Shown here: positions 42,430 to 63,716 of the stretch, piece after piece | How the letters are laid out: the number at the start of each line of letters is the position of its first letter | How positions within the stretch are numbered: the first letter of the stretch is position 1 | Source of the DNA: Streptomyces sp. B3I8 | GTDB taxonomy: Bacteria; Actinomycetota; Actinomycetes; Streptomycetales; Streptomycetaceae | Direction of reading: 5' to 3' | DNA length: 64,000 bases | NCBI RefSeq assembly: GCF_030816915.1 | Contig: NZ_JAUSYN010000002.1 | Span: 248,001-312,000 of the forward strand | Made by a program: the position numbers and the translations under genes | The notes under the pieces: model-generated | Databases searched by the model: none | What the model saw: only the letters and a program-made list of their open reading frames with translations | What the model was told of the DNA's origin: nothing

Positions 42430-43572
42430 ATGTATTCCAACTCAGCCTTGTCCGAGAAACCACCGGTGCTCGAAGAGTGGTACCGGCGTCACCTCGACCG
42501 AGCGGAACGGGACATCAGTTCCAGCGGAGTGCTTCCCTATACGTACGCCGAGATGCGTCGGCTGACCGGTCTCGGTGCGACAGACCTCGACGACCTCCTG
42601 GTCGACGACAGCACCTCTCAGGGATCGCCCGAACTGCGCCAGGCCATCGCCGACCGTTATCTGTCGGGCCGGGCCGAACGGGTCATGGTCACCCATGGCT
42701 CGAGTGAGGCGATCGCCCTCACGCTGGCGACACTCTTACAGCCGGGTGACCTCGTGGTACTGCCGGACATGCTGTACCACGCACTGGTCCACTATCCCGA
42801 ACTGGCCGGCTGCCGGCTGCGCCTCCTGCCTCTGGACCACTTCACCGCTGCCGGAACCGACCCCGGGGCCATGGACCGGGCGATCCCGCCGGACACCCGG
42901 GCCGTCATCGTCAACTTCCCGCACAATCCCACCGGTACAACGCTGACTCCGGCCGCGTACCGACGGCTCATCGACCGGGTGCGGGAGGTGGGAGCGGTCC
43001 TGGTGTGGGACGCGGCGACCGCGGAGATCTCCTGGAGCGGCCCGGTCCTGCCGGACCCAGGTCTGGAACATCCGGACACCATCAGCTACGGCACGCTCTC
43101 CAAAGCCTTCGGGCTGCCGGGGCTACGGGTGGGATGGTGCACCGCCCCTCCCGAACTGATCGAGCGCAGTTTCGCCCTGCGTGACCGCAGCACCCTGTTC
43201 CTGTCCCCGATCGTGGAGACGATCGCCACGGCGGCGATGCGCTCGGCGGACGCCCTCGTCGAGCCGAGGCGGGACCGCGCTCGTGCCAACCTCGCCGTAC
43301 TGGAGCGATGGGTCGCGGAACACGAAGGGCTGGTGACCTGGAAGCCGCCGCAGGGAGGGGTCTGCTGCCTGCTGGAACTCTCCGGCGTCACGGACTCGGA
43401 GCGGTTCTGCCTCGACCTCCTGGAGCAGGACGGGACGTTGCTGGTACCCGGTACCGCGTTCGGGCGTGAGGGCACCGTCCGGCTCGGCTTCGGCGGTGGC
43501 GAGAAGGACTTCACCGACGGGCTGATGTCTCTTTCCCAGCTGCTGCGAGCCGGAGGAGGACCGCGTCGATGA
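42430..43572 (+). CDS. PLP-dependent enzyme related to capreomycidine synthase (VioD-like)
   Basis: 380 residues from ATG 42430 (GTG 42415 is an alternative). It is a fold-type I aminotransferase-like PLP enzyme. Features that recall VioD, which cyclises 3-hydroxyarginine to capreomycidine, are RDISSSGVLPYTYAEMR near residue 28, VTHGSSEAIALTLATLL, VIVNFPHNPTGTTLTP (about 163), and SYGTLSKAFGLPGLRVGW with the PLP Lys (about 224), then RDRSTLFLSPIVETIA. Its stop overlaps the A-T gene start by ATGA. A TTA codon at 42736-42738 suggests bldA control. No arginine hydroxylase (VioC) gene is nearby, so the substrate may differ; assignment to the family is firmer than to the reaction. Confidence 0.85.
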   Translation: MYSNSALSEKPPVLEEWYRRHLDRAERDISSSGVLPYTYAEMRRLTGLGATDLDDLLVDDSTSQGSPELRQAIADRYLSGRAERVMVTHGSSEAIALTLATLLQPGDLVVLPDMLYHALVHYPELAGCRLRLLPLDHFTAAGTDPGAMDRAIPPDTRAVIVNFPHNPTGTTLTPAAYRRLIDRVREVGAVLVWDAATAEISWSGPVLPDPGLEHPDTISYGTLSKAFGLPGLRVGWCTAPPELIERSFALRDRSTLFLSPIVETIATAAMRSADALVEPRRDRARANLAVLERWVAEHEGLVTWKPPQGGVCCLLELSGVTDSERFCLDLLEQDGTLLVPGTAFGREGTVRLGFGGGEKDFTDGLMSLSQLLRAGGGPRR

Positions 43573-45461
43573 CCGCACCCGGCCCCGTCGCCGAGTCCGA
43601 CGCACTGCTTGAGTCGTGGCGATGTGTCGTGGCGCGCCACGGTGAACGTATCGCCCTCAGCAACGGTCGGCGCACCCTGACCTATCGCCAACTGGCCGCG
43701 GTCGCACAGCGGATCGGGGGCCGGCTGGCCGCTGCCGGTGCTGCCCCGGGGCGGCAGGTGATGCTCCAGGTGAACGCTCCCATCGATGCCGTCATGAGCA
43801 TGTTGGGTGTGCTGGAAGCGGGCGCGGCCTTCGCCCTGCTGGAGGACGGGTTGCCGCAGGCGGCTCGGGCGGCCCGAATGGACCGGGTCAGCGCCGTGCT
43901 GTCGGCCGGACGCGGACAGCCGGCGGACGCGTTGCCCCTTCCGTGGGTCGACCTGGCCCCGGAACTGGACGGCGTAGAACCGGACGGACCCGTGCCCGCC
44001 GGGGGCATATGCCCGGGCCCGGCGGCATACGTGATGTTCACCTCCGGCTCCACCGGTCGCCCCAAAGCGGTCGAGATCGGACGCGACGCGCTGCACGGCT
44101 TCTCGCTCGCCGCTGCGGACCGCCTCGCGCTCCGCCCCGGGGACCGGTGGCTGCAGCTGGCCTCCCTGGGCTTCGACGTGCTCATCGAGGAGGTCTTCCC
44201 GGCATTGATGACCGGGAGCACAGTGGTCTGTCGCCCCGACAGCGTTGCGCCGGACCCGCAGGAACTGCACGCCATGCTGAGCGACATGGGTGTCACGATC
44301 GTGGAATTGTCCACCCAGTACTGGCGCGAGTACGCCCGTTGGCTCGACGTCCGGAACGAGACGACACCACCTGGACTGCGGCGTGTGCTCGTCGGAGGTG
44401 AACGAATGGATCCCGACGACTGGCGCCGCTGGGAGCGCTCCGGACACGCTCCCCTGGTGCACGTCTACGGGCTCACCGAGTGCACCGTCACCTCGACCAT
44501 GTACGACGGCCGGCTGCCCGCGGACGCCCAGGAAGTACCCATTGGCACACCGCTCGCCAACGCCGAGGTCACCGTACGTGGCGCCGACAGGCTACCGGTC
44601 ACGCCCGGCGAACTCGGTGAGATCTGCATCGGGGGCCCCTCACTGGCGTCGGGCTACATAGGCGATCCGGAACAGACCGCTCGGCGGTTCGTCCCGGATC
44701 CCCGTTCACCGGAGCGGCACCTGTACGTCACCGGGGACCGCGGCAGGATCCTGCCGGACGGCAATCTGGAGTTCAGGGGCCGCCTGGACGACCAGCTCAA
44801 GGTACGGGGGCACCGGCTGGAGCCCGCGTCGGTGGAACGACTGCTCACGGCGGACCCCGGGGTGGCCCAGGCCGTGGTCCTCCTCGACGTGAACACCCGG
44901 ACCACCTTGTCGGCCTGCCTCGTCCCGGCCGGACCCGTTCCGGGAGTGACCGGGGACCGTGTGCTGCCCGTCACAGGGGAGCGACGCGAGGAACTGCTGG
45001 CCGTTCTCGGCGCGGAGCTGCCCGACTGGGCCGTTCCCCGTCGGCTGTTCTGGACGGCTGAGCTGCCGAAGAACGCACACGGCAAGCTCGACCGCCACTC
45101 CCTCGACACCATGCTCGCCGCCGCGTCCCGACCCACCGCCGAGGCCACCGCCCCGGCAGCCGATGCCGACACGTCCCGCGAGCGGGGCCAGGAACCCGGG
45201 GAGGGACCGGCCCAACTGGCCGCCGTCCTGGAGCGTTTCCGAGTGCTGCTGGGCGACCCCGGGTTCGGGCCCGACTCCGACTTCTTCGAAGGCGGCGGGC
45301 AGTCGATTCTCGCCATGCGTCTGGTCACCGAGCTGCGCGCGACTCTCCCCAGCACACCCGGACTGCGGACGAGTACCGTTTTCGACCATCCCACCCCGCG
45401 CCGGCTGGCTCACTGGGTGGCCGCCCGGACCGGCCGCAGCCGGAACGCTCCCGAGCGGTAG
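43569..45461 (+). CDS. NRPS adenylation-carrier (A-T) didomain
   Basis: 630 residues. The A domain core motifs are A3 YVMFTSGSTGRPKAVEIG (about 155), A4 LGFDVLIEEVF (about 201), A5 HVYGLTECTVTSTMY (about 299), A7 YVTGDRG, A8 FRGRLDDQLKVRGHRLEP and A10 PKNAHGKLDR. By hand alignment with GrsA the pocket is Asp, Val, Glu, Glu, Leu, Gly, Val, Val, Thr, Lys, acidic at positions 239 and 278, which suggests a basic side chain (Arg, Lys, Orn or capreomycidine type). The carrier domain is SDFFEGGGQSILAMRLVTEL with the phosphopantetheine Ser about 576. There is no C domain in cis. ATGA-coupled to the VioD-like gene. Confidence 0.9.
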   Translation: MTAPGPVAESDALLESWRCVVARHGERIALSNGRRTLTYRQLAAVAQRIGGRLAAAGAAPGRQVMLQVNAPIDAVMSMLGVLEAGAAFALLEDGLPQAARAARMDRVSAVLSAGRGQPADALPLPWVDLAPELDGVEPDGPVPAGGICPGPAAYVMFTSGSTGRPKAVEIGRDALHGFSLAAADRLALRPGDRWLQLASLGFDVLIEEVFPALMTGSTVVCRPDSVAPDPQELHAMLSDMGVTIVELSTQYWREYARWLDVRNETTPPGLRRVLVGGERMDPDDWRRWERSGHAPLVHVYGLTECTVTSTMYDGRLPADAQEVPIGTPLANAEVTVRGADRLPVTPGELGEICIGGPSLASGYIGDPEQTARRFVPDPRSPERHLYVTGDRGRILPDGNLEFRGRLDDQLKVRGHRLEPASVERLLTADPGVAQAVVLLDVNTRTTLSACLVPAGPVPGVTGDRVLPVTGERREELLAVLGAELPDWAVPRRLFWTAELPKNAHGKLDRHSLDTMLAAASRPTAEATAPAADADTSRERGQEPGEGPAQLAAVLERFRVLLGDPGFGPDSDFFEGGGQSILAMRLVTELRATLPSTPGLRTSTVFDHPTPRRLAHWVAARTGRSRNAPER

Positions 45462-45521
45462 GGCGTTCACCTCCCCCGACAGCAGCGAAGGACTCATCCT
45501 CAATGGGCACCGATCACCACC

Positions 45522-45928
45522 ATGTCCTGCCCCTTACTCGCGACCGAGCGCGACAGTCGGCCGAGGAGCCGGGTCCTGGTGATCGCCCCGCACCCGGACG
45601 ACGAGGTCATCGGGTGCGGTGGCTCCATCGCCAAGCCCGCCCGGTCCGGCGCGGAGGTCTCGAGGAGGCCGGGCCGCCCGTCCCGCCTCCGTCCCTGGTG
45701 CTCGGCTACGAGATCCGGGTCCCGCTGGGAGAGGTCCAGTACACCGAGGACGTGACCGCGCGGATCGATGTGGAGGCGGAAGCCATGAGGTGCTGCTGCT
45801 CCCGGTCGCGGCACGCGGCCCGGGACGAGGCCGTGCGCGAACTGGCCTCCTGCCGGGCCGTCACGAGCACCGGCCGGCGGTGGAGCGAGACCCTCGGTGT
45901 CATCCGGGTGTCCGGCTCCCCGGCCTGA
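45522..45928 (+). pseudogene. PIG-L/LmbE-type deacetylase remnant
   Basis: From ATG 45522, RVLVIAPHPDDEVIGCGGSI is the metal-binding N-terminus of PIG-L deacetylases (HPDDE). After about 45 codons homology is lost, and a second frame carries the C-terminal pattern GYEIRVPLGEVQYTEDVTAR and AVTSTGRRWSETLGVIRVS. The middle of the protein, including the other metal His, is missing, so an internal deletion plus frameshift has inactivated it. The first frame has a TTA codon at 45534-45536. The remnant may show that the cluster once handled an N-acyl sugar or amine. Confidence 0.8.
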
Positions 45929-45954
45929 GCCGCGGAGCCGCTCACCCTGCCCGC

Positions 45955-47343
45955 TCAGTCGACCCGAGCCACCGACGGCAGCAGTTCCTCGACCGCGGTG
46001 TCCGGAGAGCTCAGGAAGCTGTGCACCAAGGAGGTGAAAACATGCGCCAGTTCCCGTACCCCTGCCTCACCGAAGACATCCGCGGGGAACAGCACGGTGA
46101 AGTCCACGCTCTCCTCGTCGGCCGAGGCGAACAGCTCCAGGCTCTCTATCTGCTGCAGCTGTCCGGGGACCTCGGCCGGCTCCACCGCGAGGCCGGCGGC
46201 CCGGCGGCTGCCGCCGGTCCAGCCTCCGGGTGCCACGTCGAAGAACGTGCAGGGGCGCTCCAGCAGCCTGCCGAGCATGTGCGGAGCGAGGGCCGACGTC
46301 ACCTCGGGCGCCGGGACCTGCCCCAACCGCTGGCTCTCCATGACCGCCGAACGCACCTGGCGTGTCAGCTGACGGAACGAGACGGAGGTGTCCAGCTTCA
46401 CTCGCACGGTGACGTAGGTGGACAGGAAGCACACCAGGTTGAGCAGGTGCTCCTGGGTGCGGCGGGTCACCGGGATGAGCGCCGTGAGATCGGCGCGACC
46501 ATTGCGGGCGTGCAGTGCGCACAGGTACGAGGAGAACAGCACGATGAACGGGGTCGTCCGGGCGGACCGGCAGTACTCCGTGAGCAGCCGGAACGTCTCC
46601 GGAGGCAGCGAGACGTCGAAGGTGCCGACCTCGTAGCGGTCGTTGGTCTCGCGCCGCATCTCCGGCAGAAAGACGGGGGCGTTGGTCCCGATCCCGTCGA
46701 GCAGTTCGGCGAAGCGAGCGATCAGCTGCCTGGGCTCGGGATCGCGGCCGAGCCACTCGGCCTCCCAGCGGACGAAGTCGGAGTAGGTGAAGGGCTGGTC
46801 GGGCAGCTTCGCCTCCCGGCCCTCCACCTCCGCGGCGTACAGCTCCCACAGCTCGTTCGCGAGGATCTCGAACGACTGGCCATCGGCTACGAGATGGTCG
46901 ACGGCGACGCCGAGCAGGTGATCCTCGTCGCCGAGCCGGTATACGACGGCGCTGAACAGCAGCCCGCCGTCGAGGTCGGGATTGCGGCTGAGGTACGCAC
47001 CGGCCCGGCGCAGCGCCTCGTCCAGCCGCTCCGCCTCGGGCAGATCCCGCAGGTCCTCCTCGTCCGGTACGAAGGACCGGGCCGGCCGGATCTCCTGGCG
47101 CCCGGCTTTGCCACGTTCCGGGAACGCCACGCGCAGCGCCTCGTGGCGGGCGACGAGCGCGGTCAGCGCCGAGTGCAGCGCGTCGGACCGCAGCGGTCCG
47201 CCGAGCCTGAACGCCCTGCTGATCATGCGGACCTCGACGCCCAGACCGCGCTGCTCCACCCACTCCTGAATCGCCAGGCGGTCCGCCTGGTCGGACAGCA
47301 GCGGAAGCCCTTCGAAAGGGCCTCCCTCGTTCACGGTGTGCAT
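45955..47343 (-). CDS. Stand-alone NRPS condensation (C) domain
   Basis: 462 residues from ATG 47343 after GGGAG. It is a complete C domain: DQADRLAIQEWVEQRGLGVE near the start, the acceptor/donor core VAVDHLVADGQSFEILANEL (HHxxxDG with Asp for the first His; the second, catalytic His and the Asp-Gly are kept) near residue 150, then DLTALIPVTRRTQEHLLNLV and CFLSTYVTVRVKLDTSVS. It reads opposite to the other cluster genes. With no carrier or A domain attached it must act in trans on carrier proteins encoded elsewhere in the cluster (inference). Confidence 0.9.
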   Translation of the reverse strand: MHTVNEGGPFEGLPLLSDQADRLAIQEWVEQRGLGVEVRMISRAFRLGGPLRSDALHSALTALVARHEALRVAFPERGKAGRQEIRPARSFVPDEEDLRDLPEAERLDEALRRAGAYLSRNPDLDGGLLFSAVVYRLGDEDHLLGVAVDHLVADGQSFEILANELWELYAAEVEGREAKLPDQPFTYSDFVRWEAEWLGRDPEPRQLIARFAELLDGIGTNAPVFLPEMRRETNDRYEVGTFDVSLPPETFRLLTEYCRSARTTPFIVLFSSYLCALHARNGRADLTALIPVTRRTQEHLLNLVCFLSTYVTVRVKLDTSVSFRQLTRQVRSAVMESQRLGQVPAPEVTSALAPHMLGRLLERPCTFFDVAPGGWTGGSRRAAGLAVEPAEVPGQLQQIESLELFASADEESVDFTVLFPADVFGEAGVRELAHVFTSLVHSFLSSPDTAVEELLPSVARVD

Positions 47344-47496
47344 GTGAATTCTCCCTTCGGAAAAATCATGACACGCCGGATGCGAAGGCACCCGGAATGA
47401 GAACCGAGACTACTGAAGGGAATGCTGCCGATGCAATACGGTCACGCGATAATTTCTTCGGAGATTACGCCGAGATGCACGTGGAGGCGCCTTACA

Positions 47497-47733
47497 ATGG
47501 CTCCACCGAAGGGGGTAGCGAAAAACCTCTCCGAACTGCTTTCCTTCTACAGGGCGGGCACCGGGTCGCACCTGGGCCTCGACTGCCGCACCGGCACTTC
47601 GCCGTTCACGCCGACCGGCCGATTGGGCCGGCCGGCGGCGATGGACCGGCCGTCGGACCTGCTGCGCGAGGTCGGGGCCGCCGTACCGCGGGCTCCCCCG
47701 AGCGACTTCGTCGAACACCTCGCCATATGGTGA
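47497..47733 (+). CDS. Possible 78-residue protein, unrecognised
   Basis: ATG 47497 has GTGGAGG nine bases upstream. The product MAPPKGVAKNLSELLSFYRA continues GTGSHLGLDCRTGTSPFTPT and ends PRAPPSDFVEHLAIW; the composition is protein-like but I match it to no family. Just beyond its stop another frame reads ETFDICEINPGTGRSLIRMK, so this could be one gene broken by a frameshift. It lies in the divergent region between the lone C domain gene and the MFS gene. Confidence 0.3.
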   Translation: MAPPKGVAKNLSELLSFYRAGTGSHLGLDCRTGTSPFTPTGRLGRPAAMDRPSDLLREVGAAVPRAPPSDFVEHLAIW

Positions 47734-47825
47734 ATGACCGGCGCCCGAGACTTTTGACATCTGCGAAATCAACCCCGGGACGGGCAGATCACTCATCCGC
47801 ATGAAGGACATGGGAGATCCCCGCC

Positions 47826-47885
47826 ATGGCCGTGACCGAGCAGATCAGCAGGCCCACCGAAAAGGCAGTGGATTCGGCCGCGTGA
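47826..47885 (+). CDS. Possible 19-residue peptide
   Basis: GGGAG at 47813-47817 is eight bases before ATG 47826, and the frame MAVTEQISRPTEKAVDSAA stops at 47885. Too short for a homology judgement; might be a leader peptide or chance. Recorded because the RBS spacing is good. The rest of 47734-48191 has no recognised gene. Confidence 0.2.
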   Translation: MAVTEQISRPTEKAVDSAA

Positions 47886-47957
47886 GGCGCTCCCGATCGC
47901 CGCGGAAACGCGTTTTCGGCATTCACAAGGGACCGGCCGGGTAATGTTTCGGACGTC

Positions 47958-47989
47958 ATGTCCCTATGCCCCTATGTCCCTATGTCCCT
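47958..47989. repeat. Four-copy octamer tandem repeat
   Basis: ATGTCCCT, ATGCCCCT, ATGTCCCT, ATGTCCCT in series, with one base change in the second copy. It is about 200 bp before the MFS gene at 48192. Confidence 0.7.
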
Positions 47990-48191
47990 CAGAAATGGCG
48001 ATCGCCCTGCGGTGGCGCGCCCGGCCGCCGTGCGCCGGGGCGCCCGGTGTCGTGCGGTTCCGCCGGCGTCACTGGCCGGCAGCGGCGGAGCGGCGACTGT
48101 CCCCGCCCTCGCCGGTCCTCCTCAACAGGGCTGATCCGTCAGCGAGTTGAGCAACATCTGTTAACATCCTCCTATGCCTCCTTAGGTCAAG

Positions 48192-49520
48192 ATGCCGCAC
48201 TCATCGTCGCGTTCCTTCCGCGTGGGCTTCGTGTACCTGTACACCGGCCTCACCGAACTCCTCCCGCTGCACGCCGTCTACGCCCTGCTGATGGCTTCGC
48301 ACGGGGTCTCGACCTCGGAACTGTCACTCCTGTTCGCCCTGTGGACAGTGACCACCTTCCTCTTCGAGATTCCTTCCGGAGCGGTGGCCGACCGCTTCCC
48401 CCGCCATCGGGTCCTGGCGTCCGCGGCGCTCGCACAGTGCACGGGCTTCGTCCTGTGGACGGCGCTGCCTTCACTGGGCTCGTTCGCTGCGGGCTTCGTC
48501 CTATGGGGCCTCTCCACCGCCCTCACCTCCGGAACCCTGCAGTCCCTGCTCTACGACGGACTGGCCGCCGACGGCAGATCCGAGGAGTACACGCGGGTCA
48601 GCAGCCGGATGGCGACCGTCCAGGCCTGCTCGATCGCCGTCAGCTCGCTGGTCGCCTCGCCGGTAGTGCTGTTGGGCGGCTACAGCGCCGCCGGCTGGAT
48701 CTCGGCGGTGCTCACCCTGCTCGCGGTCCCCACCGCGCTGGCCCTGGGCCGCCGCCGACAGGACATCCCCGCCACGGACACCCCTGTCACGGACGGTACC
48801 GACACCTCCCCGGCAAAGGGCTGGCTGTTCCTGCTGCGCGCCGGTCTGGCCGAAGCACGCGACACACCCCAGGTGCGATCCTGCCTGCTGATGATCTCGG
48901 TCCTGGCGGGACTCGGTGTCGTGGACGAGTACCTTCCCGTGCTCGCCAAGGAGGGGAACGCTCCGTCGGCCGTCATCCCGCTGCTTCTGCTGCTCCCCTG
49001 GGGCGCGATGGCTCTCGGCAGTTTCATGGGATGGCGGCTCGCCAAGGCGGGCAACCGCGCCCTGGCCGGTCTGCTTCTCCTCGGCGGCTCGGCCCTGGCA
49101 CTGGGCGCGCTCAGCCGCCACCCCGGCGGGTTCCTGGGCATCGCCGTCTTCTACTGGGTACTGCGCATGCTCCAGGTCGTCATGGGCGCCCGCCTGCAAC
49201 ACGCCATCACCGGCCCGGCCCGGGCGACGGTCTCCTCGGTCGCGGGGCTGGGCGCGCAGACGGTGTCACTCATGATCTTCCTTGGTTCCGCCCTCTGCGC
49301 CCGGTGGGTCTCCGCCTCCATGCTGGTCGCCCTCACGTCCATCCCGGTGTTCCTGACCGCGACACTGCTCCTCCTGCGTCCGCGGCACCTTTCCACAGCC
49401 ACCGCGCAGAGCGCACAGGACGGCCCTGGCGGCGTTCCGCCTGTGTCCGTTTCCGGACCGGCACCTCAGGCCGACCTCCGTGAGGACCGATCGGCGCCCA
49501 CAGGGGAGAGCGACACATGA
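48192..49520 (+). CDS. MFS transporter, cluster-linked
   Basis: 442 residues. About twelve helices, with VYALLMASHGVSTSELSLLF early and the motif-A-like GAVADRFPRHRVLASAAL in the loop after helix 2. FEIPSGAVADRF matches the drug/peptide exporter subfamily. The C-terminal 50 residues are Pro/Gln-rich and probably cytoplasmic. Its last four bases, ATGA, are shared with the NRPS gene start, so it is co-translated with the peptide machinery and is a likely product exporter or self-resistance pump. Confidence 0.88.
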   Translation: MPHSSSRSFRVGFVYLYTGLTELLPLHAVYALLMASHGVSTSELSLLFALWTVTTFLFEIPSGAVADRFPRHRVLASAALAQCTGFVLWTALPSLGSFAAGFVLWGLSTALTSGTLQSLLYDGLAADGRSEEYTRVSSRMATVQACSIAVSSLVASPVVLLGGYSAAGWISAVLTLLAVPTALALGRRRQDIPATDTPVTDGTDTSPAKGWLFLLRAGLAEARDTPQVRSCLLMISVLAGLGVVDEYLPVLAKEGNAPSAVIPLLLLLPWGAMALGSFMGWRLAKAGNRALAGLLLLGGSALALGALSRHPGGFLGIAVFYWVLRMLQVVMGARLQHAITGPARATVSSVAGLGAQTVSLMIFLGSALCARWVSASMLVALTSIPVFLTATLLLLRPRHLSTATAQSAQDGPGGVPPVSVSGPAPQADLREDRSAPTGESDT

Positions 49521-54444: not shown

Positions 54445-55227
54445 ATGACCCGAATCGTCATGGTTACCGATTGCAGAGATGTCGCTTTCAGCGAAATCTG
54501 CGGCGCCATCCATAAAGAGGCGGACGAGATAGGGCACCCGATCACGATCGAGCCGATCGTGGCCGTGGAGAACTTCTCGGAATTCAACGCGGCCTTTCTC
54601 ACCCGCTTGGTGGCGGAGAGTTACCCGGCGGGGACGGTGATCTACACGCTCGTCTCGAAGTCCTCCAACGTGCGGCCGCTGCATGACGTCATCTGGGGCG
54701 AGACCCGCTCGGGGCACATCTTTGTCGGTTCGAACTTCGGCTATTTCGGCTGGCTTGCGCGAGACCTCGGCATCAAGCACGTGTACGAGATCCGGGACGT
54801 GCCGCAGATGAATTTCTCCGGGAAGAGCTTCATCCCTCCGATCGTGGCACGGATCGCGGCTGACGACACTGCGAGCCTCACCACGTACCCGTACGAGGAA
54901 TCGGAGATCGACGACACGCCGTTCGTCGAGGGAACCGTCGCGCACGTCGACAACTTCGGCAACGTCAAGGTCACGAAAGATCTCGGCGAACTGCCGCACG
55001 GGAAGACGCTCGCACTCGCCCTGAACGGGACCGCCCTGTGCGAGGCGGTGCACATCACGAACCAGATCTATCTACAGCCCGAGTCCAGCAAGATCGTCGC
55101 CTATCGCTCCACCTCTTTCCCGGACATGACCGACATCGGCATGGTGCGCGGGAACTTCGCCCAGAGCCACGGGATCCGTGTGGGGGATCGACTGACCTGG
55201 ACCACCGAGTCGTCGGACAAGGACTGA
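54445..55227 (+). CDS. DUF62-family (SAM hydroxide adenosyltransferase / fluorinase-fold) protein
   Basis: 260 residues with a strong AGAGGAGG RBS. The N-terminus TRIVMVTDCRDVAFSEICGA has the Asp that binds the ribose of SAM in this fold; YPAGTVIYTLVSKSSNVR replaces the usual EGTVFATTTYP; GHIFVGSNFGYFGWLARDLG replaces the GPDNG loop; VAHVDNFGNVKVTKDL is the DxFGN motif at about 168; and GMVRGNFAQSHGIRVG is the adenine-binding tail. The DPGVG motif of ordinary DUF62 is absent, so it is a divergent member. Known members make adenosine plus methionine or 5-halo-adenosine from SAM. Next to an NDT-like gene, so a nucleoside-linked tailoring or recycling step is likely. Confidence 0.8.
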   Translation: MTRIVMVTDCRDVAFSEICGAIHKEADEIGHPITIEPIVAVENFSEFNAAFLTRLVAESYPAGTVIYTLVSKSSNVRPLHDVIWGETRSGHIFVGSNFGYFGWLARDLGIKHVYEIRDVPQMNFSGKSFIPPIVARIAADDTASLTTYPYEESEIDDTPFVEGTVAHVDNFGNVKVTKDLGELPHGKTLALALNGTALCEAVHITNQIYLQPESSKIVAYRSTSFPDMTDIGMVRGNFAQSHGIRVGDRLTWTTESSDKD

Positions 55228-55229
55228 CC

Positions 55230-57029
55230 GTGGCCGCAATCACCGGATGGACGGACCCGGCGCGCGATCTGCGCGAGGCCGACGCCACTGTCGCTCAGCT
55301 GATCGCGGCTCTCACCCCCCGCGCGCGGGGCGCCGCATCGCTGTGGTCGGACCGGGAGACGATGCTCGCCCATCGCGCCGATCCGACGTGTCCCCAAGGC
55401 ACCGGACTCGCCGAGCTCCGGGACAACGGCCGCACCATCGCGGTCGCTGTTCTCGACGGCTACCTCCAGAACACCGAGGAACTGGCCGGCGTCCTCGGGG
55501 TGGGGCGCGGTGCGGCACCGGCTGACGTACTGCTGCACGGATACCTGGCCTGGGGGCCGGCCGTGGCCGAGCGTCTCGAGGGCAACTTCGCATTCGCCGT
55601 CTGGGACGCACGCGCCCGGCGGCTCGTCCTGGGGCGCGACCGTATCGGCATCACGCCGCTGCACTACGCGCGCGCAGGTGACGGCACGTTGTTCTCCTCG
55701 GATCTCGCCGCGCTGGTCGACCATCCGATGCTCCGGGCCGAGATGGACAAGGAGGGCCTGTGCGCCCTCATCACGCAGATCCGTCCCCCCGGCCGATCGG
55801 CCCTGCGCGGAGTCCGGGAGGTTCCCGCCGGCTGTGTCGTCGTGCTCTCCGGAGCGAACGAGGAAGTGCGCCGCTACTGGACGCTGGAGGCCCGTCCCCA
55901 CGAGGACGACCTCGACGTCACCCTGACCCGCGTGCGCGAACTGGTGGAGGACGCCATCACCCGCGATGTGCGCGGCGCCCACCCGGCGGTGCTCCTCTCC
56001 GGCGGCCTCGACTCCAGTGCGCTGACGGGCTGGGCCACGAAGCTCACCGCTCAGCCGCCGCTCACGTTCACCGTGGCCTTCGGAGACGGCGCGTCGGCGG
56101 TACCCGACCGCCCCTACTCCCAGGACGTGGCCCGGATGTGGCGCACCGATCACCGTGAGATCCTCGTCCGTCCCCAGGAGCTCTCGGACCCGGTCGTGCT
56201 CGCCGCGGTGCTCGCGGCCAAGGACTACCCGTCCCCGTTCGGCGACAAGAACATCACCCCCTTCCTGTTCAGCAGGCGCGTCGCCGAGCACACCGAGGTG
56301 GCGCTCAGCGGTGAAGCGGCCGACACCGTCTTCGGCAGCCTCGGCGGCCAGATCAAGACCGGATACGAACTGAGCACCTTCCCATGGGTCGAGAAAGCGT
56401 GGAAATGGGGTGCGCGCAGCGGACTCGGCACCAGGCTGTTCGATCCGAAGCTGCTGGCCGAGATCGGGGCGGAGTCCTACCTCGACCTCAGATTCCGGGA
56501 GGCACTCGACGAGGTGCCGCACTTGCCCGGCGACCCTCAACGCAACCGCCTGGGCCGGCAGTACGACTACCTCACTGTCACGCGCATGCTCGACCAGGCC
56601 ATCAACCACTCCGAGCGCCTCGCTGCCGCCGCCGGGCTGCAACTGCGCTACCCGTTCAGCGACCACCGGCTCTTCTCCTATCTCTACAACGTGCCCGTGG
56701 AGATGAAGTGGTACGACGGGCGGGGCAAGAGCCTGCTGCGTACCCTCGCGAAGACCCTCGTTCCGGAATCGGTGCTCACCCGGCCCAAGGTGCCCTATCC
56801 GATCACCTACGCGCCGCAGTACAAGGCCGCGCTGGCGGCACGGCTGCGCGGCCTGCTCGACGACTCCGACGCCCCCGTACTGCCGTTGCTCGACATCGCC
56901 GCGGCACACCGGATCGCCGCCGATCCCGACCTGCTCGACCGCGGCGGCTGGTTCGGCCGGGCGGATGTCGAGTTCGCCCTCAACCTCGACGCCTGGCTGC
57001 GCCGCCTCCGTGTGCACCTGCACCTATGA
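55230..57029 (+). CDS. Asparagine-synthetase-like ATP-dependent ligase lacking the glutaminase Cys
   Basis: 599 residues from GTG 55230, three bases after the DUF62 gene. The first residues are MAAITGWTDPARDLREADAT where AsnB has MCGIxGxxD: Cys2 is Ala, so no glutamine hydrolysis. The C-terminal synthetase domain is intact: PPGRSALRGVREVPAGCVVV, ATP loop AVLLSGGLDSSALTGWATKL (about 257), YPSPFGDKNITPF, ALSGEAADTVFGSLGGQI and LPGDPQRNRLGRQYDYLTVT. Cys-less members such as beta-lactam synthetase and lasso cyclase form amides or rings from a free amine or a carboxyl adenylate. That role, on the NRPS product, is inferred here. Confidence 0.85.
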   Translation: MAAITGWTDPARDLREADATVAQLIAALTPRARGAASLWSDRETMLAHRADPTCPQGTGLAELRDNGRTIAVAVLDGYLQNTEELAGVLGVGRGAAPADVLLHGYLAWGPAVAERLEGNFAFAVWDARARRLVLGRDRIGITPLHYARAGDGTLFSSDLAALVDHPMLRAEMDKEGLCALITQIRPPGRSALRGVREVPAGCVVVLSGANEEVRRYWTLEARPHEDDLDVTLTRVRELVEDAITRDVRGAHPAVLLSGGLDSSALTGWATKLTAQPPLTFTVAFGDGASAVPDRPYSQDVARMWRTDHREILVRPQELSDPVVLAAVLAAKDYPSPFGDKNITPFLFSRRVAEHTEVALSGEAADTVFGSLGGQIKTGYELSTFPWVEKAWKWGARSGLGTRLFDPKLLAEIGAESYLDLRFREALDEVPHLPGDPQRNRLGRQYDYLTVTRMLDQAINHSERLAAAAGLQLRYPFSDHRLFSYLYNVPVEMKWYDGRGKSLLRTLAKTLVPESVLTRPKVPYPITYAPQYKAALAARLRGLLDDSDAPVLPLLDIAAAHRIAADPDLLDRGGWFGRADVEFALNLDAWLRRLRVHLHL

Positions 57030-57050
57030 ATCGCGACGAATGGACGTGCG

Positions 57051-58580
57051 ATGTACTCCCTCTTTCGTGACCAGGCAGCCAGGCACGGCACGCGTCCCGC
57101 CGTCCGTGACGAGCAACGAACTCTGAACTACGCCGAGTTGGCCGACCGCGCCGGAGCGATCGCCGGTTCACTGCGTGAGCGCTTCGGCGACGACGATGTG
57201 CGGATCGGGCTCTACTGCGGGCGCACGGTCGACTTGGTGACCGCGGTGCTCGGGGTCGCCGCAGCCGGATACACCTATGTGCCGCTCGATCCCACCTACC
57301 CGGAGTCCCGCCTGGACTTCATGGCGAAGGACAGCGGTCTCGCTGCGATCGTCTCGGACCGCGTCCTGCCCGGAGGTCTGGCCGGGATCGAGGTGCTGCG
57401 GATCGACGAGTACGACCAGGACGCCGCGACACAGCCACGGGAGGAGCTTCCGGAGCCGTCCCCGGACTCCACCGCGTACATCATCTACACATCGGGCTCG
57501 ACCGGCAGGCCCAAGGGCGTGGCGGTCCGCCGCCGGTCGGTCACCGCGTTGGTCCGCGGCATGCTGGACCAGTACGACTTCGACAGCGATGACGTCTGGA
57601 CGCTGCTGCACTCCTACTGCTTCGACGTCTCCGTCTGGGAGATGTGGGGCGCGCTGGCCAGCGGCGCCACCCTGGTGGTGGTACCCACCGAGGTTGTGCG
57701 CTCACCGCGGGCCACGATCGACCTGATGACCCGTCACCGCGTCACGATCACGAGCGTGGTACCCACGGTGTTCCGGTATCTGGCCGCCCATGTGCGCACG
57801 TCCGGACACTGGCCGAGCACGCTGCGGCGCGTCGTCTTCGGTGGCGAGGCGGTCGACGCGGCCGATGTCAGAATCTGGCGCGCGACCGCCGGGAGCCGCT
57901 GCGAGTTCATGAACACGTACGGCATCACCGAGACCACCGTCTACGTCAGTACCCGGACCTTCACCGACGCCGAACTCGACGCGACCGGGGACGAGCGGGG
58001 GTTCGCCACCGAACTCGGCCGCCCGATTCCCGGGTGGGAGATAGCGGTGCTCGACGACGAGGGCGTACCCGTCGCGGTCGGGGAGACCGGCGAGATCTGG
58101 GTCGCCGGCGCGGGAGTCGCAGAGGGCTATGTCAACCGTCCCGACCTCACCGCGGAGCGTTTTCGCATGCTGGAACCAGCGGGAGGGCCTCCCCGCCTGT
58201 TCTACCGCAGCGGCGACCTCGCGGTCCGCGCCGCGAAGGAGACATACCGCATCGTCGGCCGGGCGGACCTCCAGGTCAAGATCAACGGTTTTCGCATCGA
58301 ACCGGGAGAGATCGAGGTGGCGTTGCGAGGTATCCCCGGGGTGCTCGACGCCATCGTCACCGCGGGCAACAGCCGCCGCGGCGAGCCGATGCTCACCGCG
58401 CACTACACCAGTGAGTCCGGACTGAGCCCTGAGCGGCTGCGCGAACTCTTCGCGGCCGAGGTACCCGCCCATCTCGTGCCCGGCGCGTTCGTCCGCATGG
58501 CCGACCTCCCCCGCACCGCGTCAGGCAAGAGCGATCGCAGGGCGCTGAGCGAGGAACTCACCGAAAGCAGGTTCGCATGA
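57051..58580 (+). CDS. Stand-alone NRPS adenylation (A) domain
   Basis: 509 residues. All core motifs are present: A3 YIIYTSGSTGRPKGVAVRRR (about 145), A4 SYCFDVSVWEMWGALASGAT (about 190), A5 FMNTYGITETTVYVS, A7 FYRSGDLAVR, A8 IVGRADLQVKINGFRIEPGE and A10 LPRTASGKSDRR (about 492). By hand alignment with GrsA, the pocket reads Asp, Val, Trp, Ser, Val, Gly, Thr, Val, Tyr, Lys, for which I know no firm substrate; Asp235 and Lys517 are kept, so it should be an amino-acid-activating enzyme. Having no carrier, it may load those of the T-C-A, half-C-T and C-T-C proteins. ATGA overlap with the C-T-C gene. Confidence 0.9.
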   Translation: MYSLFRDQAARHGTRPAVRDEQRTLNYAELADRAGAIAGSLRERFGDDDVRIGLYCGRTVDLVTAVLGVAAAGYTYVPLDPTYPESRLDFMAKDSGLAAIVSDRVLPGGLAGIEVLRIDEYDQDAATQPREELPEPSPDSTAYIIYTSGSTGRPKGVAVRRRSVTALVRGMLDQYDFDSDDVWTLLHSYCFDVSVWEMWGALASGATLVVVPTEVVRSPRATIDLMTRHRVTITSVVPTVFRYLAAHVRTSGHWPSTLRRVVFGGEAVDAADVRIWRATAGSRCEFMNTYGITETTVYVSTRTFTDAELDATGDERGFATELGRPIPGWEIAVLDDEGVPVAVGETGEIWVAGAGVAEGYVNRPDLTAERFRMLEPAGGPPRLFYRSGDLAVRAAKETYRIVGRADLQVKINGFRIEPGEIEVALRGIPGVLDAIVTAGNSRRGEPMLTAHYTSESGLSPERLRELFAAEVPAHLVPGAFVRMADLPRTASGKSDRRALSEELTESRFA

Positions 58581-61522
58581 CCGACGAGACCCAACGCCTT
58601 CCGCTTTCCGTCAATCAGGAGGCCATGTGGGTCGCGTGGCAGCGCGACCCCGAGCAGCGGTCGCACATCATCCCGCTCCCGTTCGAGGTGGAGGGGCGTC
58701 TCGACCTGCCCCGGCTGCGCCGGGCCGTGGGGGCGCTCGCCGCCAGGTATCCGCAGTTGCGTGGACGAGTCGTCGCCACCCCGAAAGGCCCGGTACTGGA
58801 CTGGTCGGATGCTCCCGCGATACCGGTGCGCGAGACCGAACAGGCCGGCGCTCGGAAAGAGGCTCTGCGACAGCTGTGGCAGCGGCCCTTCGACCTGCGC
58901 AGCGGTCCGCTGCTGCGGATAGACGTCCTGAACGACAAAGACTCGCAAACCCTGCTGGTGGCAGCGCACCACCTCGTCAACGACGGCGCGGGCGTCCTGA
59001 TCATGATGGAGGCGCTGCGCGCCGCGTACAACGACGGATCGGTCGCCGACGGGACGGTGGCCCCTCTCGGAGCGGCACGCCTCCACGCCGAGCGCACCAG
59101 GGAACTCGCCGACGGGGATTCGGGGCAGGCGCACCGTGCCTACTGGCGCGCGATCCTCGGCGACGGCGGCCCGGACTTCGAGCTGCCGCGCAACACCGAG
59201 CCGGGCGGTTACACGATGCTCGGCGACTACATACCCCAGGAACTCGAGATCCGGCTGCGGGCGTCCGCCGAGGAGCATGGCGTCTCCTACGTCACGGTCC
59301 TGCTCACCGGCTACTTCGCGCTGCTACGCCGGTACTCGGCCTCCGACGACCTCTTGGCCTTCGTGCCCTTCCACGGCAGGACGGATCCCGAACTCGCCGA
59401 TCAGGTGGGCTATTTCGTCAATCCGCTCCCAGTCCGGCATCGGATCCGCGCCTTTGACCGGTACCGTGATCTGTTGACGCGGGTGCGTTTGGAGGTCAAG
59501 GACGCCCTGCGGTTCGGCGAGCTGCCGTTGCCCAGCATCATGCGCGCGGCCGGGCTCTCCGGCCCGCAGGCCCACGCCCGGACCCACCAGGCGCTGTTCC
59601 AGTACTGGAACGCGGGACTGCGCTCCGGCACAGATCTGCAGCATCTGGAGTTCGACGGTGCCGTACTGCGGATGTCCGACGTGGAGAGCAGTGCCGGGTT
59701 CACACTCGCCGTCATGGTGCGGGAAGACAGCTCCGGCACCCACGTGCTGTGGAAGGACCCGGAGGGTGTCCTCGGGCTCGCCCAGGTGCGGGCCATGGCT
59801 TCGGACTACCTCGACGTGCTCGCGGACATCGCGGACCGCCCGGGCTCGACAGTCGCCGCCCCGCTCGCCTCGTCCACCGATCCGGCGGCCGGCCACCCGC
59901 TGGCCGGGCCGCAGCCGGAGTCCGGGCCGGAGGCCGGCCCCGGTGCCACCGTTGAGCGTTCAGGCATGATCGAGGTCTGGCAGGAGGTGCTGGGCGTCCC
60001 TGACATCGACTGGCGGGATTCATTCTTCGAACTCGGAGGGCACTCACTGCTGGCCGAGTCACTGATCCACTCCGTGGGCGAACGTTTCGGCGTCGAGGTC
60101 TCGCTCCGCACGCTGTTCGACTACCCGCGGCTGTCGGACTTCACCGAGCAGGTGCTGGGTGCCCCCCGGGCCGAGTCGGTGGACAGCGAGCCCGAGGCGG
60201 GCCGCGCGGAGGACGCGGATGCGCACTGGCGGCCCCTGCCCCACCGGATGGCCCTGGGACTGAGCCGGGAGCAGCGGCCGGACGGCGTCATTCCCGCGGA
60301 GAGCATCATCTGCAAGGTCTTCGAGTTCCCCGGCGTCCGTGTCGACCCACCCCGGCTGGACCGTGCGGTGCGGTGGGCCGCGGCGGCCAATCCCTCGCTG
60401 ACAGCCGAATACCGCATCGACGCGTCACACGGCCCGTTGTACCGGCCCCGCCCGCCCCGTCCCGGACTGGTGGAACTGGTACGGACGGCATCGGACGACT
60501 GGGAGACGGTGCGGCGCGTCGCGGACAAGATCGCCAGTGAGGAGATCGTGCGCGACCTGGACGTACGTGAAGGGCAAGCGCTCTACGTGGCCTGTGTGCA
60601 CGGACCCGGAGCCGGCTTCGCGCTCGTGATCAGGATCGACCACTCGGTGTGCGACGGCCTGTCCTTCAACCGCTTCCTCAAAGACATGAGCGATGCCTAC
60701 GCGACGGACGACGAACGGGAGTTCCAGGCCGGCCACACTCGTGCCGCCCTCTCGGACGTCGCCGTCGCAGAGCGCATCGCGCTCGAAGACACCCGCACCG
60801 AGGCACTGCGCGCAGCCTGGCGCGCCCGCCTTCCTCGGGGTGTACCGGAGATGTTCATCAACGACACGACACCGTGGTCGAAGTGCCCGCCCCACGGGAG
60901 CAACGTCCAGATCGTGCTGCGCGGCGAGGAGTACCAGCGGCACCTGGCGGAGGCACGGCAGCACCGGGCGACCGGGTTCATGGTCGCCATCACGAAGATC
61001 CTGCGTGCCCTGCGGCCCGTGCTGCTCAATGACGAACTCGCCTTCTTCTGCCCGTTCCCCGGACGCTTCGTGCCGGAGGCCACGGGTACTGTCGGCAACT
61101 TCGTCAACCTGCTGCCGGTGGTGGTCGACGCACCGCGCGGCACGGACGCGCCGAACACGCTCAAAGCGGTCCGCAACGCGATGCTCTGGACCCTCCAGCA
61201 TCAGGGGCTGCCCTTCGCCACGGTGCTCGACGAGGTGCGCGAGGTCGACCCGACGGGTGAGCAGTACCCGAAGAAGCGCCGCTCCATCTTCATCGCGGGC
61301 AACGAGCCCGACCGCTTCACGCTCGACGGCGTCTCCGCCACGACGCGGGTCCCCGACCTCACCTCCGCCATGTTCGATCTCAGTGTCTGGGTCACCGACA
61401 CCGGCTCGGAGCTGGTCTGTTCCGCGGTCTTCCGCCGCTCCCTGCTGGATCTCGAAGCAGTGCGCAAGGTGCTCACCGCGATCGGTGCGCCGTTGGAGTC
61501 CCTCCCGGACAGCGGCATGTGA
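58577..61522 (+). CDS. NRPS protein with C-T-C domains
   Basis: 981 residues. C1 (1-410) has VAAHHLVNDGAGVLIMMEAL (HHxxxDG at about 131). The carrier (FFELGGHSLLAESLIHSVGE, Ser about 489) is complete. C2 (540-981) has VIRIDHSVCDGLSFNRFLKD (about 689, HHxxxDG with Asp for the first His), and FCPFPGRFVPEATGTVGNFV and HQGLPFATVLDEVREVDPTG late motifs. There is no A domain and no thioesterase, so the carrier is loaded in trans and the C2 domain may release or transfer the chain to a free amine. No TE gene was seen anywhere in the cluster, making the Cys-less ligase or C2 a possible release step (inference). Confidence 0.9.
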   Translation: MTDETQRLPLSVNQEAMWVAWQRDPEQRSHIIPLPFEVEGRLDLPRLRRAVGALAARYPQLRGRVVATPKGPVLDWSDAPAIPVRETEQAGARKEALRQLWQRPFDLRSGPLLRIDVLNDKDSQTLLVAAHHLVNDGAGVLIMMEALRAAYNDGSVADGTVAPLGAARLHAERTRELADGDSGQAHRAYWRAILGDGGPDFELPRNTEPGGYTMLGDYIPQELEIRLRASAEEHGVSYVTVLLTGYFALLRRYSASDDLLAFVPFHGRTDPELADQVGYFVNPLPVRHRIRAFDRYRDLLTRVRLEVKDALRFGELPLPSIMRAAGLSGPQAHARTHQALFQYWNAGLRSGTDLQHLEFDGAVLRMSDVESSAGFTLAVMVREDSSGTHVLWKDPEGVLGLAQVRAMASDYLDVLADIADRPGSTVAAPLASSTDPAAGHPLAGPQPESGPEAGPGATVERSGMIEVWQEVLGVPDIDWRDSFFELGGHSLLAESLIHSVGERFGVEVSLRTLFDYPRLSDFTEQVLGAPRAESVDSEPEAGRAEDADAHWRPLPHRMALGLSREQRPDGVIPAESIICKVFEFPGVRVDPPRLDRAVRWAAAANPSLTAEYRIDASHGPLYRPRPPRPGLVELVRTASDDWETVRRVADKIASEEIVRDLDVREGQALYVACVHGPGAGFALVIRIDHSVCDGLSFNRFLKDMSDAYATDDEREFQAGHTRAALSDVAVAERIALEDTRTEALRAAWRARLPRGVPEMFINDTTPWSKCPPHGSNVQIVLRGEEYQRHLAEARQHRATGFMVAITKILRALRPVLLNDELAFFCPFPGRFVPEATGTVGNFVNLLPVVVDAPRGTDAPNTLKAVRNAMLWTLQHQGLPFATVLDEVREVDPTGEQYPKKRRSIFIAGNEPDRFTLDGVSATTRVPDLTSAMFDLSVWVTDTGSELVCSAVFRRSLLDLEAVRKVLTAIGAPLESLPDSGM

Positions 61523-62414: not shown

Positions 62415-63716
62415 GTGCACCCGTCCGCCCCCGAGGAGACCGTCGCTCCCGCGCCCCGACCGGCCGACCGCTCCCACGCCCTGTCCTGGACACCCGACCT
62501 GCTGCGCGACACCGCCTTCCGCCGTTACTGGACCGCCCAGACCGTGTCGTACCTCGGCGACCAGGTGTCCGCCCTCACCCTCCCCCTCATCGCCGTCACC
62601 GTGGTGCACGCGGGCGCGGTGCAGATGGGCTGTCTCAGCGCCGCGGCCTGGCTGCCGCACCTGCTGTTCGGGCCGTACGCCGGGCTGTGGGCGGACCGCC
62701 GCAGCCACCGGCGCCGTGTCATGATCGCCGCCGATCTGGGCCGCTTCACGCTGCTGCTCGGCCTGGCCCTCTTCTACGCCTTCGGCACGCTGACGTTCAC
62801 CGTCCTGTTCGCGATGGCCTTCGGCGTCGGGCTGCTGTCGGTCCTCTTCGAGGTGTGCAACCCCCCGCTCTTCAAAGCCCTGGTGCCGCCCGAGCACTAT
62901 GTGTCCGGCAACTCGCTGAGCAGCGGCAGCCGAGCCATGGCGAAGATCGTCGGCCCGAGCGCCGGCGGTTTCCTGGTGCAGCTGCTCTCCGCGCCTGCCG
63001 CCCTGCTGGTGGACGCGGTGTCGTACCTCGTCTCGGCCGTGCAGCTGGCGCGGATCGCCCCGCAGGAGGCACCACCCTCGACGGAGCGTGCCCGGTTGCG
63101 GACGGCCTGCCGGTTCATCGTCCGCTCCCGGACCCTCCGGGCGGCACTGGCCGCCACCGCCACGGTCAACTTCTTCTGCTTCGTGACCACCACCCTCTTC
63201 GTGCTGTACGCCACTACCTCGCTCGGTCTCGGCGCGGGCCTGTTGGGCACGGTGCTGGGCGCCGGGGCCGTCGGCGCGGTGGTGGGCGCCGTTTCGGCGA
63301 CTCCGCTGACCCGAGGCCTGGGAGTGGGCCGGACCTTCCTGCTCGGCTGCCTGGCGTCCACCGCTCCGCTGCTGCTGATTCCGGCGGCCCACGGGGCCAA
63401 ACGCACGATGCTGCTGATGCTGGTCGGCGCCCAGTTCGGCTCGGCCATGGGTGTCATCTGGATCGACATCACCGCCGCGACCCTGCTGACCTCGCACGTC
63501 CCGGACGCCATGCGCTCCAGCGTGTTCGGCGCCTACCAGGGCGTGAACCTCGGCATGCGGCCGCTCGCCGCCCTGCTCGCCGGTGCCGCCGCCGGGCCGC
63601 TCGGGCTGCGGACGACGCTGTGGATCGCCACGGCCGGGGCCCTCACCGCCTGTCTGTGGATCCTGCCCTCACCGCTGTCCCGCAGGACCCCGCCCGACGC
63701 CGTCCATGAGTCCTGA
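62415..63716 (+). CDS. MFS transporter of the enterobactin-exporter-like type
   Basis: 433 residues from GTG 62415 (RBS AGGAAGG). Typical MFS_3 features: LRDTAFRRYWTAQTVSYLGD, QVSALTLPLIAVTVVHAGAV, motif-A-like GPYAGLWADRRSHRRRVMIA and FEVCNPPLFKALVPPEHYVS. About twelve helices. It is the second exporter in the cluster, beyond the 0.9-kb gap, and is a candidate for secretion of the peptide product or a siderophore-like molecule. Its end is 284 bp before the window edge. Confidence 0.88.
   Translation: MHPSAPEETVAPAPRPADRSHALSWTPDLLRDTAFRRYWTAQTVSYLGDQVSALTLPLIAVTVVHAGAVQMGCLSAAAWLPHLLFGPYAGLWADRRSHRRRVMIAADLGRFTLLLGLALFYAFGTLTFTVLFAMAFGVGLLSVLFEVCNPPLFKALVPPEHYVSGNSLSSGSRAMAKIVGPSAGGFLVQLLSAPAALLVDAVSYLVSAVQLARIAPQEAPPSTERARLRTACRFIVRSRTLRAALAATATVNFFCFVTTTLFVLYATTSLGLGAGLLGTVLGAGAVGAVVGAVSATPLTRGLGVGRTFLLGCLASTAPLLLIPAAHGAKRTMLLMLVGAQFGSAMGVIWIDITAATLLTSHVPDAMRSSVFGAYQGVNLGMRPLAALLAGAAAGPLGLRTTLWIATAGALTACLWILPSPLSRRTPPDAVHES

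Follow-up and report, generated by a model that had tools for sequence, protein, structure and literature searches.

A probable streptothricin-class gene set split between two head-to-head half-clusters in Streptomyces sp. B3I8

In streptothricin biosynthesis, arginine is hydroxylated by OrfP and cyclized by OrfR, a chemistry summarized in the accessible part of PMC9513391, which names a Gln and a Gly, with Tyr257 as a third mark, as distinguishing OrfP from VioC and CmnC. The BD-12 pathway of S. luteocolor employs the FemABX-like enzyme Orf11, which uses Gly-tRNA according to the accessible portions of PMC12945691 and PMC10156733. Here, we analyzed a 64,000-nt stretch of DNA from Streptomyces sp. 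B3I8 (the window; positions 248001-312000 of contig 2), belonging to a 7.98-Mb genome in two contigs that is 99.6% complete and is assigned to Streptomyces by its named relatives. A sequence-only reading had singled out positions 42430 to 63716 as an apparently undescribed, fragmented nonribosomal peptide synthetase (NRPS) cluster whose gene set resembled no characterized pathway known to that reader. We consider it quite probable that these genes are instead the left half of a streptothricin-class cluster: two related clusters would lie head to head at this locus, and reciprocal loss would have left one full gene set split between them. Coordinates past 64000 continue the window numbering beyond the window end.

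The left half opens with an OrfR/VioD-type pyridoxal phosphate (PLP) enzyme, a putative (hydroxy)capreomycidine synthase (42430..43572, + strand), which scores 460 bits against TIGR03947 (cut-off 390.9), as the sequence-only reading had anticipated for the family, and 427 bits against its best PDB match, 4m2j. It is the only match reported in the B3I8 genome at E<=1e-60. At this threshold, 23 of 392 genus genomes including B3I8 have a VioD match, one at 77% (G172), six at 58-59% and fifteen at 41-46%; contexts were read in B3I8, G172, five of the six (not G309) and three of the fifteen (G084, G211, G140). In all five read genomes of the 58-59% group, VioD is followed by genes for an A-T protein (adenylation, A, and carrier, T, domains), VioC, GNAT, Gfo, NAD, PIG-L, ATP-grasp and a glycosyltransferase, with a carbamoyltransferase on the other side of VioD and an NDT gene 14.6-15.1 kb away. 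The same canonical block, together with NDT, phosphotransferase and lysine 2,3-aminomutase genes, is annotated on plasmid NZ_CP030864.1 of S. globosus LZH-48, whose gene set we interpret as a streptothricin cluster; in another strain of this species, liquid chromatography-mass spectrometry suggested streptothricin D (PMC13248635, accessible part).

B3I8 shares with this canonical type the carbamoyltransferase, VioD/OrfR, A-T, VioC/OrfP, GNAT-like, Gfo and NAD epimerase genes, as well as PIG-L, ATP-grasp, glycosyltransferase, CocE/XPro hydrolase, phosphotransferase, alpha/beta hydrolase and NDT-like genes. The A-T gene (43569..45461, +) overlaps the VioD stop and occupies the same place as in canonical clusters. 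Its specificity code, DVELLGVVTK, resembles the canonical DVELVGVVSK, which makes a role of A-T in the core more likely than one in a new side chain. All codes given here come from alignment with an NRPS of the same genome, and we assign no substrate from them. The NDT-like gene (53361..54113, +; PF15891) is related to StnB of Streptomyces sp. TP-A0356, from which a streptothricin cluster has reportedly been mined, and has a 52% relative in S. luteocolor. By homology, VioD, A-T and NDT-like are thus core streptothricin-class genes, which provides the gene set with known relatives. Since NDT belongs to clusters of this type, it is no sign of the nucleoside-derived feature that had been suggested, and we rejected the deduction of such a product from this gene.

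The partner genes lay outside the window. Between 91966 and 108733 on the same chromosome we found, in order, a carbamoyltransferase (91966; named, like the NAD epimerase, from its S. globosus relative), a FemAB-like protein (93927; Pfam), a hydrolase (94824), a glycosyltransferase (96521), a methyltransferase (97588), an ATP-grasp protein (98381), a second methyltransferase (99622), PIG-L (100577), NAD epimerase (101239), Gfo/Idh (102210), GNAT (103339), a TauD/VioC-like oxygenase (104093), a phosphotransferase (106583) and an alpha/beta hydrolase (107936). The oxygenase at 104.1 kb is the one VioC/OrfP-family gene above cut-off in the genome and pairs, by sequence comparison, as a putative OrfP-type arginine hydroxylase with the OrfR-type cyclase of the left half. 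It scores 484 bits against 4m23, compared with 293 for VioC (2wbq) and 276 for CmnC; we take 4m23 to be OrfP and 4m2j to be OrfR. It has the Gln and Gly of OrfP and, as judged by eye, Phe at the Tyr257 position. A second VioC-family gene (G000:C2:7469310-7470152) lies near the other end of the contig and scores 217 bits, under the family cut-off. Homology likewise identified the sugar-modifying, deacetylase, glycosyltransferase and carbamoyltransferase functions (PIG-L 63%, glycosyltransferase 76%, carbamoyltransferase 68% and part of Gfo 66% to S. globosus), with roles assigned following reference titles in the accessible part of PMC10156733.

Specific counterparts in the B3I8 region were found for 13 of the 18 S. 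globosus proteins compared. The aminomutase and NAT had none in the region, and the C (condensation) and two A proteins matched only other NRPS domains in the genome, at 26-33%; the gene set of a canonical beta-lysine-chain streptothricin was therefore not recovered. Lysine 2,3-aminomutase found no match in the region or the genome, an empty answer that shows little without a positive control. B3I8 further differs from the canonical type in its division into two halves and in its extra genes: FemAB-like, two methyltransferases, lone C, T-C-A, DUF62, AsnB, lone A and C-T-C. The FemAB-like protein (Pfam Acetyltransf_6 and FemAB) is the candidate for the FemABX-like aminoacyl-tRNA transferase of the BD-12 type, which is likewise described as having a FemAB-family gene beside a streptothricin-type core. 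At E<=1e-30 it occurs in 2 of the 392 genomes, B3I8 and G172, and among the five canonical genomes only a weak match was detected, far from the cluster in G092 (E 3.5e-5, 26%).

Faulknamycin, viomycin and capreomycin also involve a VioD-family enzyme, and the equivalog score would suit a stand-alone capreomycidine peptide cluster, of the faulknamycin or viomycin kind, complete within 42-64 kb. In S. albus, the synthase for faulknamycin was shown to be encoded outside the cluster (PMC8399532, accessible part). However, arginine hydroxylase has no match in the window, the A-T and NDT partners are streptothricin-class genes, and the B3I8 locus has an OrfP-like hydroxylase, sugar genes and different partners. 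Moreover, the three read genomes with 41-46% VioD yielded no sugar-gene match and show a different, NRPS-type context. This explanation, to which we give hardly any credence, is largely ruled out by the VioD contexts, the S. globosus block and the cluster of strain NBRC 110468 described next.

Streptomyces strain NBRC 110468 (TP-A0890; contig NZ_BBYG01000022.1) contains the full set once, in a single 32-kb run, mostly at 68-91% amino acid (aa) identity. It shares all genes of the left half except the second MFS transporter, with the half-C-T protein present as T alone, and the right-half genes, and differs in being unsplit, without an NRPS cluster inside, and in two features of T-C-A (lid present, C-domain His changed). 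Its genome paper names no product for that cluster (PMC4611700). G172 represents a sister type in which DUF62, AsnB, lone A and C-T-C were not found within the 60 kb read. The gene synteny expected in other Streptomyces is therefore provided by NBRC 110468 and by Streptomyces sp. P3 (below), and in part by G172.

The two halves of the B3I8 locus differ in their affinities. At the DNA level, where a left gene has a G172 counterpart, it is nearer NBRC 110468 in all seven cases (84-91% vs 71-80%; for half-C-T the comparison covers only 228 bases in NBRC 110468), and the four left genes without a full G172 counterpart are 86-91% identical to NBRC 110468. In contrast, all 13 right genes are nearer G172 (90-96%) than NBRC 110468 (73-86%). 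For intact genes, the gap between lineages amounts to 7-17 points. The remaining stretches follow suit: all six on the left (LuxR plus five remnants) side with NBRC 110468, with a margin of just 1.6 points for the 5' end of PIG-L, and all four on the right side with G172, with a margin of about one point for the carrier remnant; for stretch 106092-106586 the NBRC 110468 match spans only 22 bases. In P3, four of five left stretches are nearer NBRC 110468, the hydrolase piece being a tie (69.6 and 69.8%), and all seven right stretches are nearer G172. Because left genes are nearer one type and right genes the other, two clusters of different origin appear to have met at this locus, an NBRC 110468-type cluster on the left and a G172-type cluster on the right, placed head to head around a separate NRPS cluster.

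Matches between the left arm (40.7-48 kb) and the right arm (109.3-99.4 kb) run in inverted, collinear order. The LuxR-type helix-turn-helix regulator (40494..40880, - strand) has a partner copy at ~109.1-109.3 kb (40674-40903 vs 109294-109065, 74% DNA identity). An APH-family phosphotransferase remnant in two reading frames (41094..41669, -), 78% identical to NBRC 110468 vs 64% to G172, corresponds to the intact copy at 106583-107572. Within the interval 45461-48222, PIG-L deacetylase, methyltransferase and ATP-grasp genes survive as decayed pieces: a PIG-L remnant with ~300 bases deleted internally (45555..45932, +; intact copy 100577-101242) and remnants of methyltransferase MT2 and the ATP-grasp start (47368..47965, +; intact copies 98381-100497). 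Between them lies the gene for the lone C domain (DHLVADG; 45955..47343, -, or to 47391 if the first GTG is used), which sits between PIG-L and methyltransferase genes also in NBRC 110468 and G172. Arm-to-arm identity is 74% for LuxR, 66% for the phosphotransferase, 62% for A-T, 95% and 76% for two pieces of PIG-L, 67% for MT2 and 62% for MT2/ATP-grasp.

Such inverted collinearity is what a cluster duplicated within the genome as an inverted repeat, and then decayed, would leave behind. A single patch speaks for this and otherwise than for two origins: 105 PIG-L bases within 45555-45659 are 95% identical between the arms, vs 90% to NBRC 110468, and the adjacent piece is 76% identical. This patch may reflect gene conversion. 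Against duplication, the intact genes of the two halves are nearer different lineages by 7-17 points, and each of the other remnants resembles its own type more closely than the opposite arm. Apart from the 105-base patch, these affinities speak against a local duplication, which we reject as very unlikely, and two origins remain our preferred reading.

The two arms have lost different genes. When 13 NBRC 110468 proteins were compared with 38.7-48.3 kb, four (phosphotransferase, PIG-L, MT2, ATP-grasp) proved to have remnants there, and nine (VioC, GNAT, Gfo, NAD, MT1, glycosyltransferase, hydrolase, FemAB, carbamoyltransferase) were unmatched. Nine G172 proteins tried against 88-112 kb revealed remnants of A-T, carrier protein, MFS0 and C-A-T; T-C-A matched as one 26-residue piece inside the carrier remnant, and no match was obtained for VioD, lone C, MFS1 or NDT. 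Conversely, each of the 20 genes common to both types retains one full reading frame in this region, seven on the left (VioD, A-T, lone C, MFS1, T-C-A, T, NDT) and 13 on the right (phosphotransferase, VioC, GNAT, Gfo, NAD, PIG-L, MT2, ATP-grasp, MT1, glycosyltransferase, hydrolase, FemAB, carbamoyltransferase). Their lengths are like those in G172 and NBRC 110468 except for T-C-A, which we counted despite its damaged A domain, and half-C-T; LuxR is retained on both sides. With independent retention of 20 out of 40 copies, such a complementary outcome would have a chance of 7.6e-6.

An independent assembly, that of Streptomyces sp. P3 (JAFEKX020000001.1), shows the same layout with less decay. 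On the left, P3 still has VioC and an MT2 frame of full length, and on the right, long stretches of C-A-T and MFS1; gene loss therefore looks gradual, with P3 as an intermediate stage. Most P3 genes (L081-L085) contain frameshifts, which are probably sequencing errors, so that single lesions in this strain are not to be trusted. Ratios of nonsynonymous to synonymous substitution (dN/dS; Nei-Gojobori on tblastn segments, B3I8 vs P3) were 0.19-0.61 in the left half (DUF62 0.19, VioD and C-T-C 0.22, T-C-A 0.61) and 0.15-0.53 in the right half (VioC and carbamoyltransferase 0.15, MT1 0.53). Complementarity, single copies and these ratios together suggest that the two halves cooperate in trans.

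Several observations weigh against such a working, reciprocally reduced pathway. When losses are counted as six blocks, the chance of complementary retention rises to 0.07, so the pattern alone is no proof; the genome-wide search for second copies covered VioD, VioC, NDT and FemAB only; and the P3 frameshifts make dN and dS noisy. At 107.7 kb, B3I8 has a broken version of a stand-alone carrier protein that P3 and G172 retain. The T-C-A protein (49517..52519, +), in which the T and C motifs predicted earlier are present, has a defective A domain in B3I8, with TSRSTGDPLG as its P-loop and ~75 lid residues including motif A8 gone; it also shows the highest dN/dS of the left half. NBRC 110468 is affected too, as its T-C-A (G393:C22:22261-25485) shares with B3I8 a Gly at position 235, which is Asp in G172, and reads HRLVHDG in the C domain, the usual second histidine being gone. 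T-C-A may hence be vestigial in this cluster type, losing catalysis and acting as a carrier, as the changed NBRC 110468 motif would suggest. The P-loop is normal and the lid present in P3, NBRC 110468 and G172, placing that damage in B3I8 only, and the motif HHxxHDG is kept in B3I8, P3 and G172. By part, dN/dS of T-C-A is 0.74 for A and 0.46 for T-C vs P3; relaxation of the A part is not firm because the NBRC 110468 comparison gives 0.47 and 0.49. The adjacent half-C-T gene (LGGNSL; 52516..53244, +), half a C domain plus T, corresponds to a C-A-T protein of 1075 aa in G172 and an 80-aa T alone in NBRC 110468, and looks like an internally shortened C-A-T module whose carrier domain survived.

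Taken at face value, the many remnants in both arms, the damaged adenylation domain and the block-wise probability would fit two clusters in decay, neither half functional, whose complementarity arose by chance block loss. The silent decay that had been named as a possible objection does apply to half of each parental cluster. Yet the surviving copies are complementary, with one full frame for each of the 20 common genes at normal length save T-C-A and half-C-T, the retained genes of both halves show dN/dS of 0.15-0.61, below 1, and a second strain keeps the same layout. We thus regard general decay as unlikely, and favor reciprocal loss that preserved one full set.

Profiles from Pfam and NCBIfam and gene calling, which altered some starts and ends relative to the earlier gene list, support the NRPS, VioD-like, DUF62, NDT-like, AsnB and MFS genes as real. 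The unit does not end at 63716, though. The left-half streptothricin-type genes span 42.4-61.5 kb and the right-half genes 91-108 kb, and the ~30 kb between them include an NRPS cluster with a thioesterase (TE) at 63993-82682 (G000:C2:311993-330682). This encodes A-T-C-A-T (domain order from motifs only), C-A-T and C-A-T-TE proteins, a GHMP kinase, PALP, ATP-grasp, a lyase, a beta-eliminating lyase and MbtH, and its peptide is predicted to have four residues. We presume a gene set of the 2,3-diaminobutyrate type. The same code, which may be shifted, occurs in the A domain of the second protein and in the second of the two A domains of the first; plasmid NZ_CP109191.1 bears a related gene set. 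Of the transporters, the one at 48222..49520 (+) is 80% identical in aa to its NBRC 110468 counterpart and belongs to the streptothricin-type cluster, while the second (62415..63716, +), present in P3 but lacking a counterpart in the NBRC 110468 cluster, for this reason more likely belongs to the NRPS cluster starting at 63993.

DUF62, AsnB, lone A and C-T-C are additions to the streptothricin-type core. The DUF62-like protein (54445..55227, +; PF01887) yielded a useful predicted structure from 16 sequences (predicted local distance difference test, pLDDT, 90), a model from four being too poor for use (58.7). Structure ranks 1-40 all belong to the fold of S-adenosylmethionine (SAM) hydroxide adenosyltransferases, chlorinases and fluorinases (template modeling, TM, score 0.67-0.82), a few being labelled uncharacterized and presumed by us to be DUF62 members. 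DUF62 SAM hydroxide adenosyltransferases and halogenases have a catalytic Asp-Arg-His. As HGRD of MJ1651 aligns with SGKS in the B3I8 protein, SAM cleavage by the latter is doubtful. The family is small, with 14 proteins in a large protein search (own or near-own included), matches in 3 of 295 genus genomes including B3I8 (the other two at 35-40%, in different contexts) and none among plasmids. In G200 (L020 16019-17689) and G111 (L022 16467-18427), a 33-40% relative adjoins a similar gene that by eye looks like a methyltransferase.

The AsnB-like ligase (55230..57029, +) finds its best PDB match in the 7ylz hydroxyamidotransferase (312 bits). It lacks the N-terminal Cys2 of glutamine-dependent asparagine synthetases, as proposed earlier, its N-terminus (MAAITGW...) having Ala at that position, and should therefore not use glutamine. 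Cys2 is replaced by Ser, Ala or Gly in all ten AsnB relatives beside C-T genes with a start read (taken from the match). Homology to AsnB alone is uninformative because it is so widespread (209 of 392 genus genomes at E<=1e-90; five besides B3I8, among the matches listed, at >=50%). A second AsnB-like gene (L018 4249-6090), 37% identical to that of the window, has a normal Cys2. The lone A domain (57051..58580, +) has motifs A3, A8 and A10 and the code DVW(V or S)VGTVYK, and C-T-C (58577..61522, +) reads HHLVNDG, LGGHSL and DHSVCDG, its C-T part being 91% identical in P3 and 83% in NBRC 110468. A contig scan uncovered 12 loci encoding a C-T relative (one at 30%), with AsnB nearby in nine and a lone-A relative in eight. 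Recurring beside different NRPS genes, the AsnB/A/C-T group looks like a movable module. A Cys-less AsnB next to C-T, often with lone A, stands beside other NRPS genes in several Streptomycetaceae.

The four added genes lie directly upstream of the 63993-82682 cluster in both B3I8 and P3, and might serve that cluster and not the streptothricin-type product. A plasmid of Streptomyces sp. NBC_01707 combines AsnB, C-T and C (~50% identity) with the same diaminobutyrate-type set within 44 kb and has no VioD match at E<=1e-30, the Streptomyces records among 60 being S. globosus and S. tendae. In NBRC 110468, by contrast, counterparts of all four (83-90% aa) are neighbors of APH and VioD, the 75 kb read there contain no NRPS cluster of that kind, and that genome has no relative of the cluster's lyase beyond 37% identity. 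Service to the NRPS cluster is therefore possible yet clearly the less probable assignment, and we retain the added genes in the streptothricin-class set.

Taken together, the locus would most likely direct a streptothricin-like antibiotic with a tRNA- and NRPS-built side chain, made by two half-clusters; beyond gene identity, all steps of the following route are inferred. The OrfP-like oxygenase (right) would hydroxylate arginine twice and OrfR/VioD (left) would cyclize the product, in line with the guanidino-type, arginine-derived product proposed earlier. A-T (left) and other right-half genes would finish the streptolidine lactam and join carbamoylated gulosamine to it. Where canonical streptothricins receive beta-lysine, the FemAB-like enzyme could then attach an amino acid taken from aminoacyl-tRNA, in the manner of Orf11 in BD-12, and the methyltransferases would decorate the product. 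In the least certain step, the carriers (A-T, T-C-A, half-C-T, C-T-C) and C domains, loaded by the lone A and acting with AsnB and the DUF62-like protein, might extend or cap the side chain, a role compatible with the trans-acting NRPS parts recognized from the outset. In place of a thioesterase, the terminal C domain of C-T-C could transfer the chain to a free amine. Our literature searches, poor in subscription journals, retrieved no paper on this cluster and no described product, consistent with the earlier suggestion that the product is apparently undescribed.

The locus looks like two gene clusters decaying complementarily, and it cautions that a fixed window may show half a pathway as a new one. 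As a tentative extension, clusters of two lineages may have been fused by reciprocal loss into a working two-half pathway around a foreign NRPS cluster. The resulting streptothricin analogue would be new, its tRNA-derived amino acid being elongated by NRPS parts in trans together with a Cys-less AsnB, and possibly by the four-residue peptide of the intervening cluster as well. Streptothricins are under re-examination against resistant Gram-negative bacteria (PMC13248635), and known resistance acts by acetylating their beta-lysine side chain (PMC11702664), as stated in the accessible portions of both papers. A branch of the family that lacks beta-lysine and instead builds its side chains by tRNA- and NRPS-dependent routes would offer a natural supply of analogues.

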